Assembly (NCBI RefSeq): GCF_002117485.1
Contig: NZ_CP021030.1
Span: 623,001 to 687,000 of the forward strand
Reading direction: 5' to 3'
Length of the DNA stretch: 64,000 bases
Origin: Rhizobium sp. NXC14
Lineage (GTDB): Bacteria > Pseudomonadota > Alphaproteobacteria > Rhizobiales > Rhizobiaceae
This document shows positions 27,647 to 61,803 of the stretch, one piece after another. Numbering within the stretch: position 1 is the first letter of the stretch; every line of letters starts with the position of its first letter. The position numbers and the translations under genes were made by a program. The notes under the pieces were generated by a model. The model was given only the letters and a program-made list of their open reading frames with translations. It was not told the origin of the DNA and did no database searches.

Positions 27647-28075
27647 TGCTCTGTCCTTGTCGACGTCATGTCTTGGTTGTCGACCGGCCTATAACACGGA
27701 GCTTGCGTGTGCCTTGTAGCAGCCGTGCAACTCCGCGGAAGTATTTCCTGCGAACTGCCTTGAATTGCTCCAAAAGCCTGTTCCTGAAAAGACTTATTAA
27801 CCTTCGGGCAAGGAATTAACCATAAACATTGGGTTACACGTCGGAATGGGAAGATGTGGTCGTTCCCAGCAGGCATGACGCCGTACCGCCGTACCGGGTC
27901 GATCCGGTATCCATCTCTTCAGACAGCTTCGAAACATAGCTGATCAGGGGCTTTTCCTGCCGGTCGTCGCCGGTGGTGAAGACCGGCTCCGCGCTTGCGT
28001 TGATCGAATGCTGCAAAAGTTTTTTGCCGGGCATTCGCCTGGAAAGTGGGTCGGGGACAGGCGTTGAGGCAGGAC
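27647..28075. other. 429-nt region upstream of the che operon
   Basis: This stretch should hold the che operon promoter. Positions 27780-27840 are AT-rich and contain two TTAACC half-sites (listed separately). Reading frames on the - strand (27643-27876 and 27834-28082) lack ribosome binding sites and any recognisable protein. No clear -35/-10 pair can be assigned by eye. Confidence 0.6.
27797..27823 (+). promoter_or_regulatory. Two CtrA-like TTAACC half-sites upstream of icpA
   Basis: TTAACC at 27797-27802 and TTAACCAT at 27816-27823 are direct repeats with starts 19 nt apart, about two helical turns, 250-280 nt before the icpA start. TTAACC(AT) is the CtrA half-site in alphaproteobacteria. 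Binding is inferred from sequence only. Confidence 0.4.
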
Positions 28076-56857: not shown

Positions 56858-57287
56858 AACCCAACTCCGTGAAGGAAATTTTCTGGCATGGCTGTCGATC
56901 GCCGGGCGCGCACGATCCGTCCTCCCAGGCAACGGGTGGATTGATCCGATGATGCTATCCCGGCACCTGGCATGTTGCCATTCGAAGCTTGCTTGAAACA
57001 GGTGCGCCTCATGAAGACACCGTCTCGCCCCAGAGAAAACGGCTTCTTTCACGATACGTTAGCATGCGAAGGGATAGATTCAGCCGGTATTAACTATGGG
57101 ATGTAAGGTGCCGGAGCGGAGCCTCCATTTTTAAGAAGTTGGCAAGCATTGGCTGCGAGATTGCCCTGGACATGACGGGTTTGGGCCAAACAAGCAGGCG
57201 CCGAGTAGCATGAAGCTGGTCCGTCATCGCCGGTAATACAGTCCGGTATGTCCTCCTTTTTGTATCTAGTTTCCAGGGGACAGATTT
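56858..57287. other. 430-nt divergent promoter region between glycosyltransferase and flaA
   Basis: No gene is seen. It contains a CtrA-like box with one mismatch (TTCA-N7-TTAAC, 57079-57094) and the flagellin leader element at 57208-57261. No obvious promoter for the glycosyltransferase gene can be placed. Confidence 0.7.
57208..57261 (+). promoter_or_regulatory. Flagellin leader element upstream of flaA
   Basis: It contains GCATGA at 57208-57213 (80 nt before flaA ATG), then CCGG (57230-57233) and CCGG (57243-57246) enclosing 9 nt, then TATGTCC and CTTTTT. The CCGG-loop-CCGG, ATGTCC and pyrimidine tract recur at the same distance upstream of flaB and flaC. It could hold the transcription start and 5' leader of the flagellin mRNA. 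Confidence 0.65.
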
Positions 57288-58193
57288 ATGACAAGCATTA
57301 ACACGAATTCTTCCGCACAGGCCGCTCTCCAGACGCTGCGCAATGTCAACCAGGGCCTCAACAAGACGCAGAACCACGTTTCATCCGGTTATCGCGTCGA
57401 AAAGGCTTCCGACAACGCTGCTTACTGGTCGATCGCAACGACCATGCGTTCGGACAACAAGGCACTGTCGGCCGTTTCCGACGCCCTCGGCGTGGGTGCT
57501 GCGAAGGTCGATACCGCTTACACCGCCATGGACAGCGCCATCGACGTCGTCGGCGAAATCAAGGCCAAGCTGGTTGCCGCGACTGAAAACGGCGTCGACA
57601 AGGCCAAGGTGCAGGAAGAAATCGGTCAGTTGCAGCAGCAGCTCCTGAGCATCGCCCAGTCGGCTTCCTTCAACGGCGAGAACTGGGTTGCTGGCGCTGC
57701 CGGCACCAAGAGCGTCGTTTCCTCCTTCGTCCGCGACGGCTCGAACGCAGTATCGATCACCACGACCGATTACGTTCTCAACAGCGGTTCCGCCGGCAAC
57801 GTTCTGTTCGGCATGAGCAACGGGACGGTCGAAACCTCCACGGGTATCCTCGGTACGTCGACGGGCGCGACCGGTTCTATCTACTCGATGAACATCACCA
57901 ACTTCACCGCCGGTCAGATCCAGACGGCTCTGACCAACGTCGAATCGGCTCTGAAGTCGATGACCAGCGCCGGTGCCGCTCTCGGCTCGCTCTCCAGCCG
58001 CATCGACAGCCAGGAAGACTTCGTGTCGGCTCTCAGCGACTCGATCGACTCCGGTATCGGCCGTCTCGTCGACGCCGACATGGAAGAAGAATCGTCGAAA
58101 CTCAGCGCCCTGCAGACCCAGCAGCAGCTGGCGATCCAGTCGCTGTCGATCGCGAACTCCTCTTCGCAGAACATCCTGTCGCTCTTCCGCTAA
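57288..58193 (+). CDS. flaA: Flagellin FlaA
   Basis: The 301-residue flagellin has the alphaproteobacterial terminal domains: N-terminal SINTNSSAQAALQTLRNVNQ, SSGYRVEKASDNAAYWSIAT and MRSDNKALSAVSDALGVGAA; C-terminal ETQEDF-like segment, ALSDSIDSGIGRLVDADMEE and LQTQQQLAIQSLSIANSSSQ ending NILSLFR. The central variable part is short. It is the first of three closely related tandem flagellins. The ribosome binding site is AGGGGA. In related rhizobia FlaA is the principal filament subunit. Confidence 0.97.
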   Translation: MTSINTNSSAQAALQTLRNVNQGLNKTQNHVSSGYRVEKASDNAAYWSIATTMRSDNKALSAVSDALGVGAAKVDTAYTAMDSAIDVVGEIKAKLVAATENGVDKAKVQEEIGQLQQQLLSIAQSASFNGENWVAGAAGTKSVVSSFVRDGSNAVSITTTDYVLNSGSAGNVLFGMSNGTVETSTGILGTSTGATGSIYSMNITNFTAGQIQTALTNVESALKSMTSAGAALGSLSSRIDSQEDFVSALSDSIDSGIGRLVDADMEEESSKLSALQTQQQLAIQSLSIANSSSQNILSLFR

Positions 58194-58217
58194 AGCGGTC
58201 GGCACAAGGCTTTCAAG

Positions 58218-58254
58218 TTTCGCGGCCGGGTCAGCCCCGGCCGCGAAATGTTTT
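58218..58254 (+). terminator. Rho-independent terminator after flaA
   Basis: A perfect 13-bp stem, TTTCGCGGCCGGG (58218-58230) with CCCGGCCGCGAAA (58236-58248), has a TCAGC loop and is followed by TGTTTT. It shows flaA and flaB are separate transcription units. Confidence 0.95.
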
Positions 58255-58316
58255 AACATAAGGTTAATGAGCGTCCGTCTAAGTATCAGATATTTTTACG
58301 AAATTTCCATTTTGAA

Positions 58317-58335
58317 TTTAGCTTTCCTTAACCAT
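58317..58335 (+). promoter_or_regulatory. CtrA-like box upstream of flaB
   Basis: TTTA at 58317-58320, 7 nt, then TTAACCAT at 58328-58335. It differs from the CtrA consensus TTAA-N7-TTAAC by one base and ends 141 nt before the flaB start, the same distance as the exact match upstream of flaC. Confidence 0.5.
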
Positions 58336-58367
58336 CTTGCTGTTTTCTAGGCCCATCGAAACGGCGA

Positions 58368-58446
58368 GTTAACCCTAACGAGAATGGTTAACAGGCATGA
58401 TGCTGATCGCTGTGGGCCGGACGAAAATCCGGAATGTCCCTTTTTT
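58368..58446 (+). promoter_or_regulatory. flaB promoter/leader element
   Basis: GTTAACC (58368-58374) and GGTTAAC (58386-58392) form an inverted repeat, followed after AG by GCATGA (58395). Then CCGGA (58417-58421), a 6-nt loop and TCCGG (58428-58432) form a small hairpin followed by AATGTCC and CTTTTTT. The TCCGG starts 48 nt before the flaB ATG. The same order and spacing are found upstream of flaC. Confidence 0.65.
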
Positions 58447-58475
58447 AAGATCTGCCAATAAGGGGCAAACTTACT

Positions 58476-59384
58476 ATGACGAGCATCAACACCAATAACG
58501 CTGCAATGGCAGCCCTTCAGACTCTGCGCGGGGTCAACCAGGGTCTCCAGACCACCCAGGCTCATGTTTCGTCCGGCTATCGTGTCGGCAAGGCTGCCGA
58601 CAACGCTGCCTACTGGTCGATCGCAACGACCATGCGTTCGGACAACAAGGCACTGTCGGCTGTTTCCGACGCTCTCGGCCTCGGCGCTGCCAAGGTCGAC
58701 ACGGCTTACTCCGCAATGGACAGCGCCATCGACGTCGTCGGCGACATCAAGGCCAAGCTGGTTGCCGCGACTGAAAACGGCGTCGACAAAGCCAAGGTCC
58801 AGGAAGAAATCAGCCAGCTGCAGCAGCAGCTCCTGAGCGTCGCTCAGTCGGCTTCCTTCTCCGGTGAAAACTGGGTTGCCGGCGCTAACGGCACCAAGAA
58901 CGTCGTTGCCTCCTTCGTCCGCGACGGCTCCAACGCCGTTTCGGTCGTGATGACCGACTATGTTCTCGACAACAGCTCCACGGGCAACGTCCTGTTCGGC
59001 ATGAGCGCCGGCGCGGTTGAAACCTCCACGGGTATCCTCGGTACTTCGAACGGCGCAACCGGTTCCGTCTACGCGATGGACATCACCAACTTCACCCTCG
59101 GCCAGATCCAAACGGCTCTGACCAACGTTGAGTCGGCTCTGAAGTCCATGACCAGCGCCGGTGCTGCACTCGGCTCGATCTCTAAGCGCATCGAGCTTCA
59201 GGAGAACTTCGTATCGGCTCTCAGCGACTCGATCGACTCCGGTATCGGCCGTCTCGTCGACGCCGACATGGAAGAAGAGTCCTCCAAACTCAGCGCCCTG
59301 CAGACCCAGCAGCAGCTCGCCGTCCAGTCCCTGTCGATTGCGAACTCCTCTTCGCAGACCATCCTGTCGCTCTTCCGCGGCTAA
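58476..59384 (+). CDS. flaB: Flagellin FlaB
   Basis: The 302-residue flagellin is closely similar to FlaA over its whole length. Differences cluster in the centre (VMTDYVLDNSSTGNVLFGMS) and near SISKRIELQENF. AAGGGG precedes the ATG by about 11 nt. Long nearly identical DNA runs with flaA and flaC at both ends suggest recent duplication or gene conversion. It has its own promoter element and terminator. Confidence 0.97.
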   Translation: MTSINTNNAAMAALQTLRGVNQGLQTTQAHVSSGYRVGKAADNAAYWSIATTMRSDNKALSAVSDALGLGAAKVDTAYSAMDSAIDVVGDIKAKLVAATENGVDKAKVQEEISQLQQQLLSVAQSASFSGENWVAGANGTKNVVASFVRDGSNAVSVVMTDYVLDNSSTGNVLFGMSAGAVETSTGILGTSNGATGSVYAMDITNFTLGQIQTALTNVESALKSMTSAGAALGSISKRIELQENFVSALSDSIDSGIGRLVDADMEEESSKLSALQTQQQLAVQSLSIANSSSQTILSLFRG

Positions 59385-59402
59385 TAAACGCCAGAAAATA
59401 TG

Positions 59403-59470
59403 GCCCGCCGGTCTCCGGCGGGCACCTCTGCTCGAGCCGCGCTTCGATGAAGCGCGGCTTTCTTATTTTC
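59403..59470 (+). terminator. Tandem terminator hairpins after flaB
   Basis: Hairpin 1 is GCCCGCCGG (59403-59411), TCT loop, CCGGCGGGC (59415-59423). Hairpin 2 is GCCGCGCTTC (59436-59445), GAT loop, GAAGCGCGGC (59449-59458), followed by TTTCTTATTTTC. Both stems are perfect. Confidence 0.93.
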
Positions 59471-59471
59471 G

Positions 59472-59490
59472 TTAACGATTGATTAACCAT
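59472..59490 (+). promoter_or_regulatory. Exact CtrA-consensus box upstream of flaC
   Basis: TTAA (59472-59475), 7 nt, TTAACCAT (59483-59490) matches the CtrA site TTAA-N7-TTAAC without mismatch. It ends 140 nt before the flaC start. CtrA control of flagellar genes is established in Caulobacter; here it is inferred. Confidence 0.6.
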
Positions 59491-59522
59491 AATGTTGTCT
59501 TCTCAGCTCAACGAGACGGCGG

Positions 59523-59600
59523 GTTAACCGACATTAAAAACCGGTTAACAGGCATGAGGCTGATCCCCGTTCCCGGTAACATTCCGGAATGTCCCTTTTT
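59523..59600 (+). promoter_or_regulatory. flaC promoter/leader element
   Basis: GTTAACC (59523-59529) and GGTTAAC (59543-59549) form an inverted repeat followed by AG-GCATGAGG. CCGG (59573-59576) and CCGG (59584-59587) enclose 7 nt, followed by AATGTCC and CTTTTT. The TCCGG starts 47 nt before the flaC ATG. Confidence 0.65.
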
Positions 59601-59629
59601 CCCAGATGCCAACAAGGGGCAATCATTTC

Positions 59630-60541
59630 ATGACCAGCATTTTGACGAACGTCGCGGCAATGGCCGCACTTCAGACACTCCGCGGAATCAACGACAGCCT
59701 CGAAGACACGCAGAACCACGTCTCGTCGGGTTACCGCGTCGAAAAGGCTGCCGACAACGCCGCTTACTGGTCGATCGCAACGACCATGCGTTCGGACAAC
59801 AAGGCGCTTTCGGCCGTGTCCGACGCTCTTGGCCTCGGCGCCGCCAAGGTCGACACCGCCTACTCCGCCATGGACAGCGCCATCGACGTCATCAGCGAGA
59901 TCAAGGCGAAGATCGTCGCCGCAACCGAAAAGGGCGTCGACAAGACCAAGGTCCAGGAGGAAATCGGTCAGTTGCAGCAGCAGCTGCTGAGCATCGCACA
60001 GTCGGCTTCCTTCTCCGGTGAAAACTGGGTCGCCGGCGCCGATGGCACCAAGAGCGTCGTGTCGACCTTTGTCCGCGACGGTAACGGCAATGTCTCGGTC
60101 AAGACGACCGACTACGTCCTGGACACGAGCTCCACGGGCAACGTTCTCTTCGGCATGACCTCGACCGGTACGATCGAGACGACCTCCGGCATCATCGGCA
60201 CATCCTACGGCACGATCGGTTCGATCTACTCTATGGACATCAGCACCTTCGGTTCGGCTGAGATCTCCATGGCCCTGACCTCCATTGAGGCCGGCCTCGA
60301 AGCGATGACCAAGGCTGCATCGCAGCTCGGTTCGATTTCGACCCGTATCGAATTGCAGGAGAACTTCGTCGGAGCGCTCAGCGATTCGATCGACTCGGGC
60401 GTCGGCCGCCTCGTCGATGCCGACATGGAAGAGGAATCGAGCAAGCTGACGGCGTTGCAAACCCAGCAGCAGCTGGCGATCCAGTCGCTGTCGATCGCCA
60501 ACTCCAGCGCCCAGAACATCCTCACGCTGTTCCGCAGCTAA
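59630..60541 (+). CDS. flaC: Flagellin FlaC
   Basis: The 303-residue flagellin starts MTSILTNVAAMAALQTLRGI at ATG 59630, with AAGGGG 13 nt upstream. It shares the conserved ends with FlaA and FlaB but is more diverged in the centre (DTSSTGNVLFGMTSTGTIET) and near EISMALTSIEAGLEAMTKAA. An open frame from 59606 would add eight residues without likeness. Naming as FlaC follows array order in R. leguminosarum-type genomes; S. meliloti numbering differs. Confidence 0.95.
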   Translation: MTSILTNVAAMAALQTLRGINDSLEDTQNHVSSGYRVEKAADNAAYWSIATTMRSDNKALSAVSDALGLGAAKVDTAYSAMDSAIDVISEIKAKIVAATEKGVDKTKVQEEIGQLQQQLLSIAQSASFSGENWVAGADGTKSVVSTFVRDGNGNVSVKTTDYVLDTSSTGNVLFGMTSTGTIETTSGIIGTSYGTIGSIYSMDISTFGSAEISMALTSIEAGLEAMTKAASQLGSISTRIELQENFVGALSDSIDSGVGRLVDADMEEESSKLTALQTQQQLAIQSLSIANSSAQNILTLFRS

Positions 60542-60605
60542 ATCAGCCGCTGAAGCTGGACCGAATCTTGCGCGGCCGTTCGGCCGCAAGCAGGAAACCT
60601 TCCGG

Positions 60606-60640
60606 ACCGCGCCCGAAAAGGCGCGGTTCTTTGTTTTATA
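60606..60640 (+). terminator. Rho-independent terminator after flaC
   Basis: An 8-bp stem, ACCGCGCC (60606-60613) with GGCGCGGT (60620-60627), has a CGAAAA loop and is followed by TCTTTGTTTTAT. An imperfect GC-rich hairpin lies just before it (60569-60592). Confidence 0.9.
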
Positions 60641-60715
60641 TCAATAGCTTGACTTGCGAGATAAGCCGCTTGTCGGGCTCTCGGCGCCGCTCTTGCCCAA
60701 CAAGTTGATATCGAG

Positions 60716-60778
60716 TTAACTTTGCCTTGAGTTGATTTGCTTTTGCGACGCGCCGGCGAAATTTCGCCGGAGGCATGA
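60716..60778 (+). promoter_or_regulatory. flaD upstream element: degenerate CtrA-like box, 18-bp palindrome and GCATGA
   Basis: TTAA (60716-60719), 7 nt, TTGAG is a degenerate CtrA-like site. A perfect palindrome CCGGCGAAATTTCGCCGG (60753-60770) is followed by AG-GCATGAGG (GCATGA 60773-60778), 68 nt before the flaD start. As in flaB and flaC, an inverted repeat abuts AG-GCATGA. The CCGG leader hairpin of the other three flagellins is absent here. Confidence 0.55.
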
Positions 60779-60840
60779 GGCCACTTCAGTCGCCGCCGTC
60801 AATCCGGCCTGCCCTTTCATCTTATTCCGAGACCCTGTCG

Positions 60841-61803
60841 ATGACCGTTAAGATTACCAGCGCGGCCGCGGTGAATGCACTTGCGGTGCTGCGCAGCATC
60901 AACAAAGAAGCCAGTCAGACCCAGCAGCAAGTGTCTTCGGGCTATCGGATCGAGACGGCCGCAGACGATGCTTCCTACTGGTCGGTCGCCACTGTCATGC
61001 GCTCGGACAGCACCAATCTCGGCACGATCGGCGATGCGCTCGGTCTCGGGGCTGCCAAGGTGGATGCGACCTACACGGCAATGAATTCGGCGATCGATCT
61101 CGTCAGCCAGATCCGCGCCAAGCTGGTTGCGGCAAGAGAGCCCGGCACCGATAAGGACAAGATCAATGCCGAGATCAGCGAATATAAGGAGCAGCTGAAG
61201 ACCGTTGTCGGGTCGACGTCGTTTGCAGGCGAGAACTGGTTGCTGAACAGTGACAAGGCAGCGCCGCCGACATGGTCGGTCATTTCAGGTTTCGTGCGCG
61301 CCTCGACGGGCGAATACCAGGCCCAGACCATCGACTTCCCTTCGTCGCAGACCATCCTCATCGACAAGAACAATGCGAGCGGCGGCCTGTTCACCAAGGC
61401 GATTGATGCCCAGGCGATCAACAGCAGCGGCACGGGACCGCGGAACTATTACCTGTTGGACGCCGGGTCGACCACGCCGGCGACGGGCAGCGAGATCGCG
61501 ATCGACAAGAACACCACTGACGCCCAGCTCGTCGACATGCTCGATGTGACCGACTCCCTGTTCTCCTCGCTGACGACGACGGCCGCCTCAATCGGTGTGA
61601 TGAAGACGCGTATTGACGACCAGATCGACTACGCGGCCGATCTGTCGGATTCGATCGACAAGAGCGTCGGCGCGCTGGTCGATACCGATATGGATGAGGC
61701 CTCGATCCGCCAGAAGGCGATCGAAACTCAGAAGCAGATGGCTGTCGAAGCGATCTCGATCCTCAACACGGCGGCAAGCAAGATCCTCATTCTGCTGGAG
61801 TAG
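60841..61803 (+). CDS. flaD: Divergent flagellin FlaD
   Basis: The 320-residue flagellin keeps the terminal motifs (AAAVNALAVLRSINKEASQT, SSGYRIETAADDASYWSVAT; C-terminal LSDSIDKSVGALVDTDMDEA, QKQMAVEAISIL). Its central part is unrelated and longer (about 140-240), and it ends ASKILILLE instead of NILSLFR. ATG 60841 matches the family start; ATG 60775 is in frame but has GGAGG only 1 nt before it. It is likely a minor filament subunit. Confidence 0.93.
   Translation: MTVKITSAAAVNALAVLRSINKEASQTQQQVSSGYRIETAADDASYWSVATVMRSDSTNLGTIGDALGLGAAKVDATYTAMNSAIDLVSQIRAKLVAAREPGTDKDKINAEISEYKEQLKTVVGSTSFAGENWLLNSDKAAPPTWSVISGFVRASTGEYQAQTIDFPSSQTILIDKNNASGGLFTKAIDAQAINSSGTGPRNYYLLDAGSTTPATGSEIAIDKNTTDAQLVDMLDVTDSLFSSLTTTAASIGVMKTRIDDQIDYAADLSDSIDKSVGALVDTDMDEASIRQKAIETQKQMAVEAISILNTAASKILILLE

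Follow-up and report, generated by a model that had tools for sequence, protein, structure and literature searches.

What have three neighbouring flagellin genes preserved in front of their start codons, and what for? The 64,000-nucleotide stretch of Rhizobium sp. NXC14 analysed here (contig NZ_CP021030.1, 623,001 to 687,000; hereafter the window, C1:623001-687000 of genome G000) encodes four flagellins consecutively on the plus strand, flaA, flaB, flaC and flaD. An initial annotation had described a shared leader hairpin in the first three, composed of CCGG, a spacer, a second CCGG and (A/T)ATGTCC, and had suggested that it is under selection and might be a target of the regulator FlbT. The arrangement is present in all three leaders, with spacers of 9, 8 and 7 nt; their opening CCGG begins at 57230, 58417 and 59573 and ATGTCC at 57248, 58434 and 59589. 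The element had been put in the right place but one base early, as the downstream CCGG has its first base at 57243, 58429 and 59584, which is 45, 47 and 46 nt upstream of the ATG and not 46, 48 and 47. The CCGG stem (P1) is real but makes up only half of the element: a second hairpin (P2) had been omitted, and the conserved ATGTCC is no separate motif but the anti-Shine-Dalgarno (anti-SD) arm of P2. We propose that the element is probably a leader of late flagellar mRNAs that keeps translation closed by default, with two hairpins, of which P2 would lie over the SD sequence.

Unconstrained folding of the flaA, flaB and flaC leaders gave P1 with P2 directly after it. P2 pairs UGUCCCUU with AAGGGGCA in flaB and flaC, and UGUCC-U-CCU with AGGGGACA in flaA, where a U-A stands at the site of a U-G in the other two genes. 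The string CCGG-N4-14-CCGG-N-ATG alone is not very rare in the window (4 matches against 1.03 expected, a count reached by 4 of 100 shuffles); what carries weight is its position in three paralogues, together with the comparative data. For the latter, flagellin genes were found by protein similarity, independently of the motif, and 507 gene starts yielded 436 distinct leaders, many from close relatives. A match resembling the GCATGAnGC box described below was in range in 418 of them and not in 18; keeping box-matching leaders 64 to 87 nt long and thinning them at 80% identity left 171, among which 152 carry an ATG[TC] anchor. Relatedness of the leaders is uncorrected in the permutation tests throughout.

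P2 was recovered in several ways. Alignment A1 comprises 75 leaders hand-picked from the 171 after the sequences had been seen and aligned by sequence only; visible outliers (e.g. L116, L130, L131, L133 and plasmid flaE) were left out, so that the A1 figures lean upward. RNAalifold on A1 finds P2, with 97.6% of its cells paired as against 28.7 to 55.7% in slid versions, and none of 500 shuffles matched either the percentage paired or the covariation score. Alignment A2, fitted to the structure and holding the best 150 of 199 matches, has 84.6% of P2 cells paired (slid versions at most 55.1%). Six of six P2 pairs, G-U allowed, can be formed with the 22 nt before the ATG in 117 of the 152 anchored leaders, compared with a mean of 8.6 (maximum 17) when the SD region is shuffled and 21.6 (maximum 33) when the arm is shuffled, and likewise in 42 of 52 loci from the order-wide search, a few of which belong to the window's own family.

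Conservation of the element, as the initial annotation had it, holds for each of the three genes and throughout the order, and the element behaves like RNA, with loops that vary in length and arms that change together. P2 arms fit their own partner better than permuted ones (2476 versus 2323, standard deviation 22, over the 152 anchored leaders), i.e. 7 standard deviations above permutation. There is thus a conserved stem that includes the SD sequence, with compensatory changes in it, as in SD-sequestering cis-regulatory leaders. The pair types seen are UA/UG/CG and CG/UA; in genus g167 (family f18) both arms have changed jointly, with UGUCUUUC opposite GAAAGACG, and the other changes are mostly one-sided, from U-A to U-G. 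The predicted probability of the SD being unpaired was 0.117, versus 0.288 with the upstream part shuffled, in 63 leaders chosen for at least five of six P2 pairs, which makes this result partly one of construction. The comparison shows that P2 is able to form in most leaders and that its arms match their own partner better than those of others. The plasmid flaE leaders examined keep the box and not P2.

P1 was judged by anchoring because the first alignment misplaced its 5' arm in many rows. Its full 4 bp can be formed in 136 of the 152 anchored leaders, 114 of them with CCGG facing CCGG, and its loops are mostly 3 to 15 nt long (maximum 22); these counts were searched within a set range with G-U allowed, and their sole control is a swap test of variant arms. 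In that test 12 of 32 variant arms had an exact upstream complement, against a mean of 5.5 after swapping (reached in 5 of 2000), a modest signal of probable compensation. The pair closing P1 covaries, in 77 of 136 rows versus 50.8 expected (0 of 5000 shuffles; rows chosen for a perfect 4-bp P1). Both hairpins are present in 111 of the 152 leaders.

Genome searches used a model of the element, R1. Across the whole of G000, only flaC, flaA and flaB fell below E 1e-8; weaker matches were a site at the chemotaxis (che) cluster (28.8 bits), the plasmid flagellin (28.2) and flaD (24.5). Within the order Rhizobiales the element was found at E 0.001, with strict filters that can miss weak matches, in 41 of 199 genomes, representing 19 of 99 genera and 11 families (f1, f2, f11, f18, f23, f28, f30, f35, f36, f44 and f45). 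At class level, four of 385 genomes had R1 matches, two inside the order and two away from flagellins. The latter two (L263 and L264), both outside the order, lie by open reading frame (ORF) reading at coaBC/dut-like and transporter-like genes and were rejected; 28 to 29 bits is therefore noise level for R1.

The hairpins are preceded by a GCATGAnGC box that was absent from the initial annotation. In the three genes GCATGAnGCT begins 22, 22 and 21 nt 5' of the first CCGG, and the box is found in 369 of the 436 leaders of the order (the unselected figure; its conservation within the 171 is partly due to selection for a box-like match) and in 0 of 32 flagellin leaders (24 loci) outside the order. 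No conserved -35 element was found upstream of it in leaders chosen for a box-like match. We infer that the box is a late-class promoter core and P1 a hairpin near the transcript 5' end. A pairing of its GGCAU with AUGUC as an anti-anti-SD was dropped because the box is unchanged in the genus with altered P2 arms.

Box and P1 also occur where P2 does not. At flaD, whose ATG at 60841 is on the same strand as the other three, the element had been reported missing, which holds for ATGTCC and for any SD-pairing stem but not for the box and a GCCG-N6-CGGC hairpin. A second site lies upstream of the protoglobin-MCP (methyl-accepting chemotaxis protein) gene, in front of cheA; this gene (longest ORF from 28046) heads the chemotaxis cluster of the window. 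Since 28.8 bits is noise level, the che-cluster element rests on recurrence in relatives rather than on score: box and P1 with similar flanks are present in 5/5 other same-genus genomes compared. The promoter region at 27816-27910 reads TTAACCATAAA, ACGTCGGAATGGGAA, TCGTTYYCA and then box and P1, a pattern kept across six same-genus genomes, the window's included. A module of box and P1 thus appears to be shared with the chemotaxis cluster and to be separable from the P2 module seen on flagellins.

Under the default-closed reading, a GGCATGAnGCC box would mark the late-class promoter of the flagellin genes, P1 would form close to the 5' end of the transcript, and P2 would pair AUGUCCC with the SD sequence and exclude the ribosome, so that flagellin translation would require its opening; a factor linked to flagellar assembly, with FlbT as first candidate, may open or stabilise the leader. 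From the comparative evidence, it is very likely that the leader is transcribed and likely that it lowers translation. That FlbT is the assembly-linked factor, here probably as an activator, we propose tentatively, at somewhat less than an even chance.

On position and genetics we hypothesise that FlbT is the leading candidate. In G000 flbT lies 12 to 13 kb beyond flaC, within the same flagellar region. Published accounts list flbT and flaF among the genes found in an Agrobacterium motility screen (PMC9812332), describe FlbT as an activator in Brucella (PMC4347634, PMC8781033) and as a repressor in Caulobacter (PMC3930126), where FljJ is a co-repressor (PMC7591256), and place Rhizobium flagellin control at the transcript level, through VisNR and Rem (PMC4696191). 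A default-closed leader would fit FlbT as an activator. FlbT is encoded in 138 of the 199 genomes of the same draw and in 40 of the 41 that bear the element, the exception (G308) being 86% complete; six of the genomes that bear the element have flbT in duplicate (G232, G314, G338, G344, G369 and G374), and in each of them one copy is 12 to 21 kb from the element, as in G000. From this pattern the element tracks a single kind of flagellar system, and the presence of FlbT does not by itself predict it; as opening factor of the leader FlbT is plausible.

Several observations weigh against this reading. The single-sequence folding energies of the three leaders are unremarkable (z of -1.19, -1.49 and -0.86), which is why the cross-leader comparison was used, and for flaA, flaB and flaC singly the SD is hidden just as well in 10, 5 and 7 of 30 shuffles; only 15 of the 63 leaders do better in this respect than 95% or more of their own shuffles. 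The anchor is lacking in 19 of the 171 leaders. RNAalifold on A1, where the 5' arm is misaligned in many rows, did not predict P1 and placed two base pairs inside the box, which we take to be spurious. Nearly all two-sided P2 changes belong to a single genus, and the count of pairs with such a change was reached by 37 of 500 shuffles; some g167 leaders show a misfit between their arms, and in the 37 of 152 leaders with a non-canonical P2 5' arm the fit was 13.6 to their own SD versus 13.2 to the canonical one. Finally, FlbT is also encoded in 98 of the 158 genomes without an element match, and the element is therefore not wherever FlbT is (98 of 138 FlbT genomes without a match at E 0.001).

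The strongest competitor is a passive leader, in which P1 and P2 fix the translation rate or guard the mRNA 5' end from decay and no factor is involved. Structural conservation needs no ligand, and the sites at the che cluster and flaD, which have P1 but no P2, suit a general 5'-end hairpin of late mRNAs. Flagellin, however, is needed in thousands of copies, and a hidden SD on so massively needed a protein would be odd without a means of opening; moreover, the A of AUGUCC is kept in 142 of 150 rows, yet only 35 of 141 distinct rows pair it in P2, a hint of a bound factor or of an exchange between P1 and P2. We regard a passive leader as possible but not probable.

A further reading makes the leader a two-state switch, in which one shared AUG is contested between P2 (AUGUCCC with GGGACAU) and an extended P1 (CAUACCGG with CCGGUAUG, complete in some families), with FlbT stabilising the open form in rhizobia. 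We consider this rather doubtful; if true, an SD-closed leader would account for FlbT being reported as an activator in this order and a repressor in Caulobacter. It is also improbable, in our judgement, that the trigger for opening P2 is temperature or a trans-acting small RNA instead of FlbT, even if a stem of about 8 bp over the SD is a common shape of such switches.

Alternatively, CCGG-N-CCGG and ATGTCC might be bound as DNA, outside the transcript, as a promoter or operator. P1 follows the box at an almost fixed distance (21 or 22 nt in 108 of 136 leaders), box and P1 recur at the che cluster, and CtrA motifs have been reported for flaA, flaC and flaD of S. meliloti (PMC3616915); but the ATGTCC arm tracks the SD, which works as RNA, and P1 loop length varies widely, so that we find an operator quite unlikely. 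The idea that AUGUCC begins a short upstream ORF (leader peptide) governing flagellin translation, to which a nearly invariant AUG in the alignments and UCC as the next codon in 122 of the 152 anchored leaders lend some appeal, was rejected as most improbable on frame spread and stop counts, since the distance to the true start falls in all three frames (58, 48 and 46 of 152), stops before or overlapping the true start are no commoner than in the next frame (60, 57 and 44 of 152), and the AUG is preceded by the CCGG hairpin instead of an SD.

The element matches no family of Rfam 15 at gathering, either in the window or in 20 related loci. The flg-Rhizobiales RNA (RF01736) was followed up for its name, since it too acts in cis on flagellar genes of this order, and rejected as a different RNA: it spans 141 positions and is described as three hairpins, and at the one locus inspected (L224) it runs across the beginning of a gene that we read as flgF. 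It had no match in the window at gathering (55-bit score), nor up to E 10 in 57000-60900, and none at gathering in the 20 related loci or in the 19 same-genus genomes searched. The RF01736-like RNA at L224 scored 34.4 bits, below cut-off; five RF01736 matches exceeded the cut-off, all in family f35.

The Caulobacter fljK leader with FlbT resembles our element as a post-transcriptionally controlled flagellin mRNA leader of the Alphaproteobacteria (PMC7591256, PMC3930126), and flbT lies in the same flagellar region as the flagellins of the window. It differs in that FlbT is described as a repressor there and as an activator in Brucella, and the 32 out-of-order flagellin leaders lack the box (the fljK leader itself being outside the comparison). 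Hairpins with an A-only loop (e.g. GGGCAAAATGCCC, sometimes in tandem) were observed in 9 of these 32 alphaproteobacterial leaders (L302, L303, L305, L306, L313, L314, L320, L326 and L330) versus 5 of 436 inside the order, and it is possible that they are the Caulobacter-type FlbT target. Sigma-54-like strings were observed in 16 of the 32 and in 2 of the 436, the latter with a slightly different pattern. SD-sequestering leaders such as RNA thermometers and ribosomal-protein leaders likewise pair a pyrimidine-rich arm with the SD, whereas the arms, the companion P1 and the place before the flagellins of one order are specific to this element. We found no account of this leader in the full-text literature, judged on titles and abstract openings and with most subscription papers outside the coverage, and no flagellin transcription start in the accessible text of two mapping papers (PMC3616915, PMC10469942).

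Table 1. Flagellin genes and leader elements in the window
Feature	Position	Strand	Basis or remark
flaA flagellin gene	57288..58193	+	Flagellin_N, Flagellin_C domains
flaA box GCATGAAGCT, probably promoter DNA	57208..57217	+	sequence comparison
flaA hairpin P1, GCCGG-N9-CCGGU	57229..57247	+	folding
flaA P2 5' arm UGUCC-U-CCU, anti-SD	57249..57257	+	folding
flaA P2 3' arm AGGGGACA = SD region, ATG 57288	57275..57282	+	folding
flaB flagellin gene	58476..59384	+	flagellin
flaB box GCATGATGCT	58395..58404	+	sequence comparison
flaB hairpin P1, CCGGA-N6-UCCGG	58417..58432	+	folding
flaB P2 5' arm UGUCCCUU, anti-SD	58435..58442	+	folding
flaB P2 3' arm AAGGGGCA = SD region, ATG 58476	58460..58467	+	folding
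flaC flagellin gene	59630..60541	+	flagellin; longest ORF begins earlier, at 59606
flaC box GCATGAGGCT	59552..59561	+	sequence comparison
flaC hairpin P1, CCGG-N7-CCGG	59573..59587	+	folding
flaC P2 5' arm UGUCCCUU, anti-SD	59590..59597	+	folding
flaC P2 3' arm AAGGGGCA = SD region, ATG 59630	59614..59621	+	folding
flaD box + P1-like hairpin GCCG-N6-CGGC, no P2	60773..60808	+	24.5 bits; folding
Chemoreceptor box GCATGACGCC + P1 GUACCGG-N6-CCGGUAU, no P2	27873..27910	+	28.8 bits; folding

The nearest match of flaB among named genomes is R. aethiopicum (99%), in a collection that may omit the source genome itself. The longest-ORF start of flaC sits within the P2 loop, and that of flaD (60775) coincides with the ATG of the GCATGA box; automatic annotation could place both starts too far upstream. 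Immediately 5' of the flaC box, at 59534-59549 of the window, is a CtrA-like string, TTAA-N7-TTAAC. The plasmid-type flagellin of the genome (G000:C3:695824-696728) was matched as two overlapping pieces, each with its own open frame, and this copy looks frameshifted in the present assembly.

We regard the element as a candidate new RNA family, with members in 11 or more families of the order, and P2 as the part most readily tied to function. It bears on how flagellin translation is coupled to assembly in Rhizobium and on the opposite signs reported for FlbT in Caulobacter and Brucella. The leader offers a concrete RNA target, found in three genes of an experimentally tractable genus, whose arms lend themselves to mutation and compensation.

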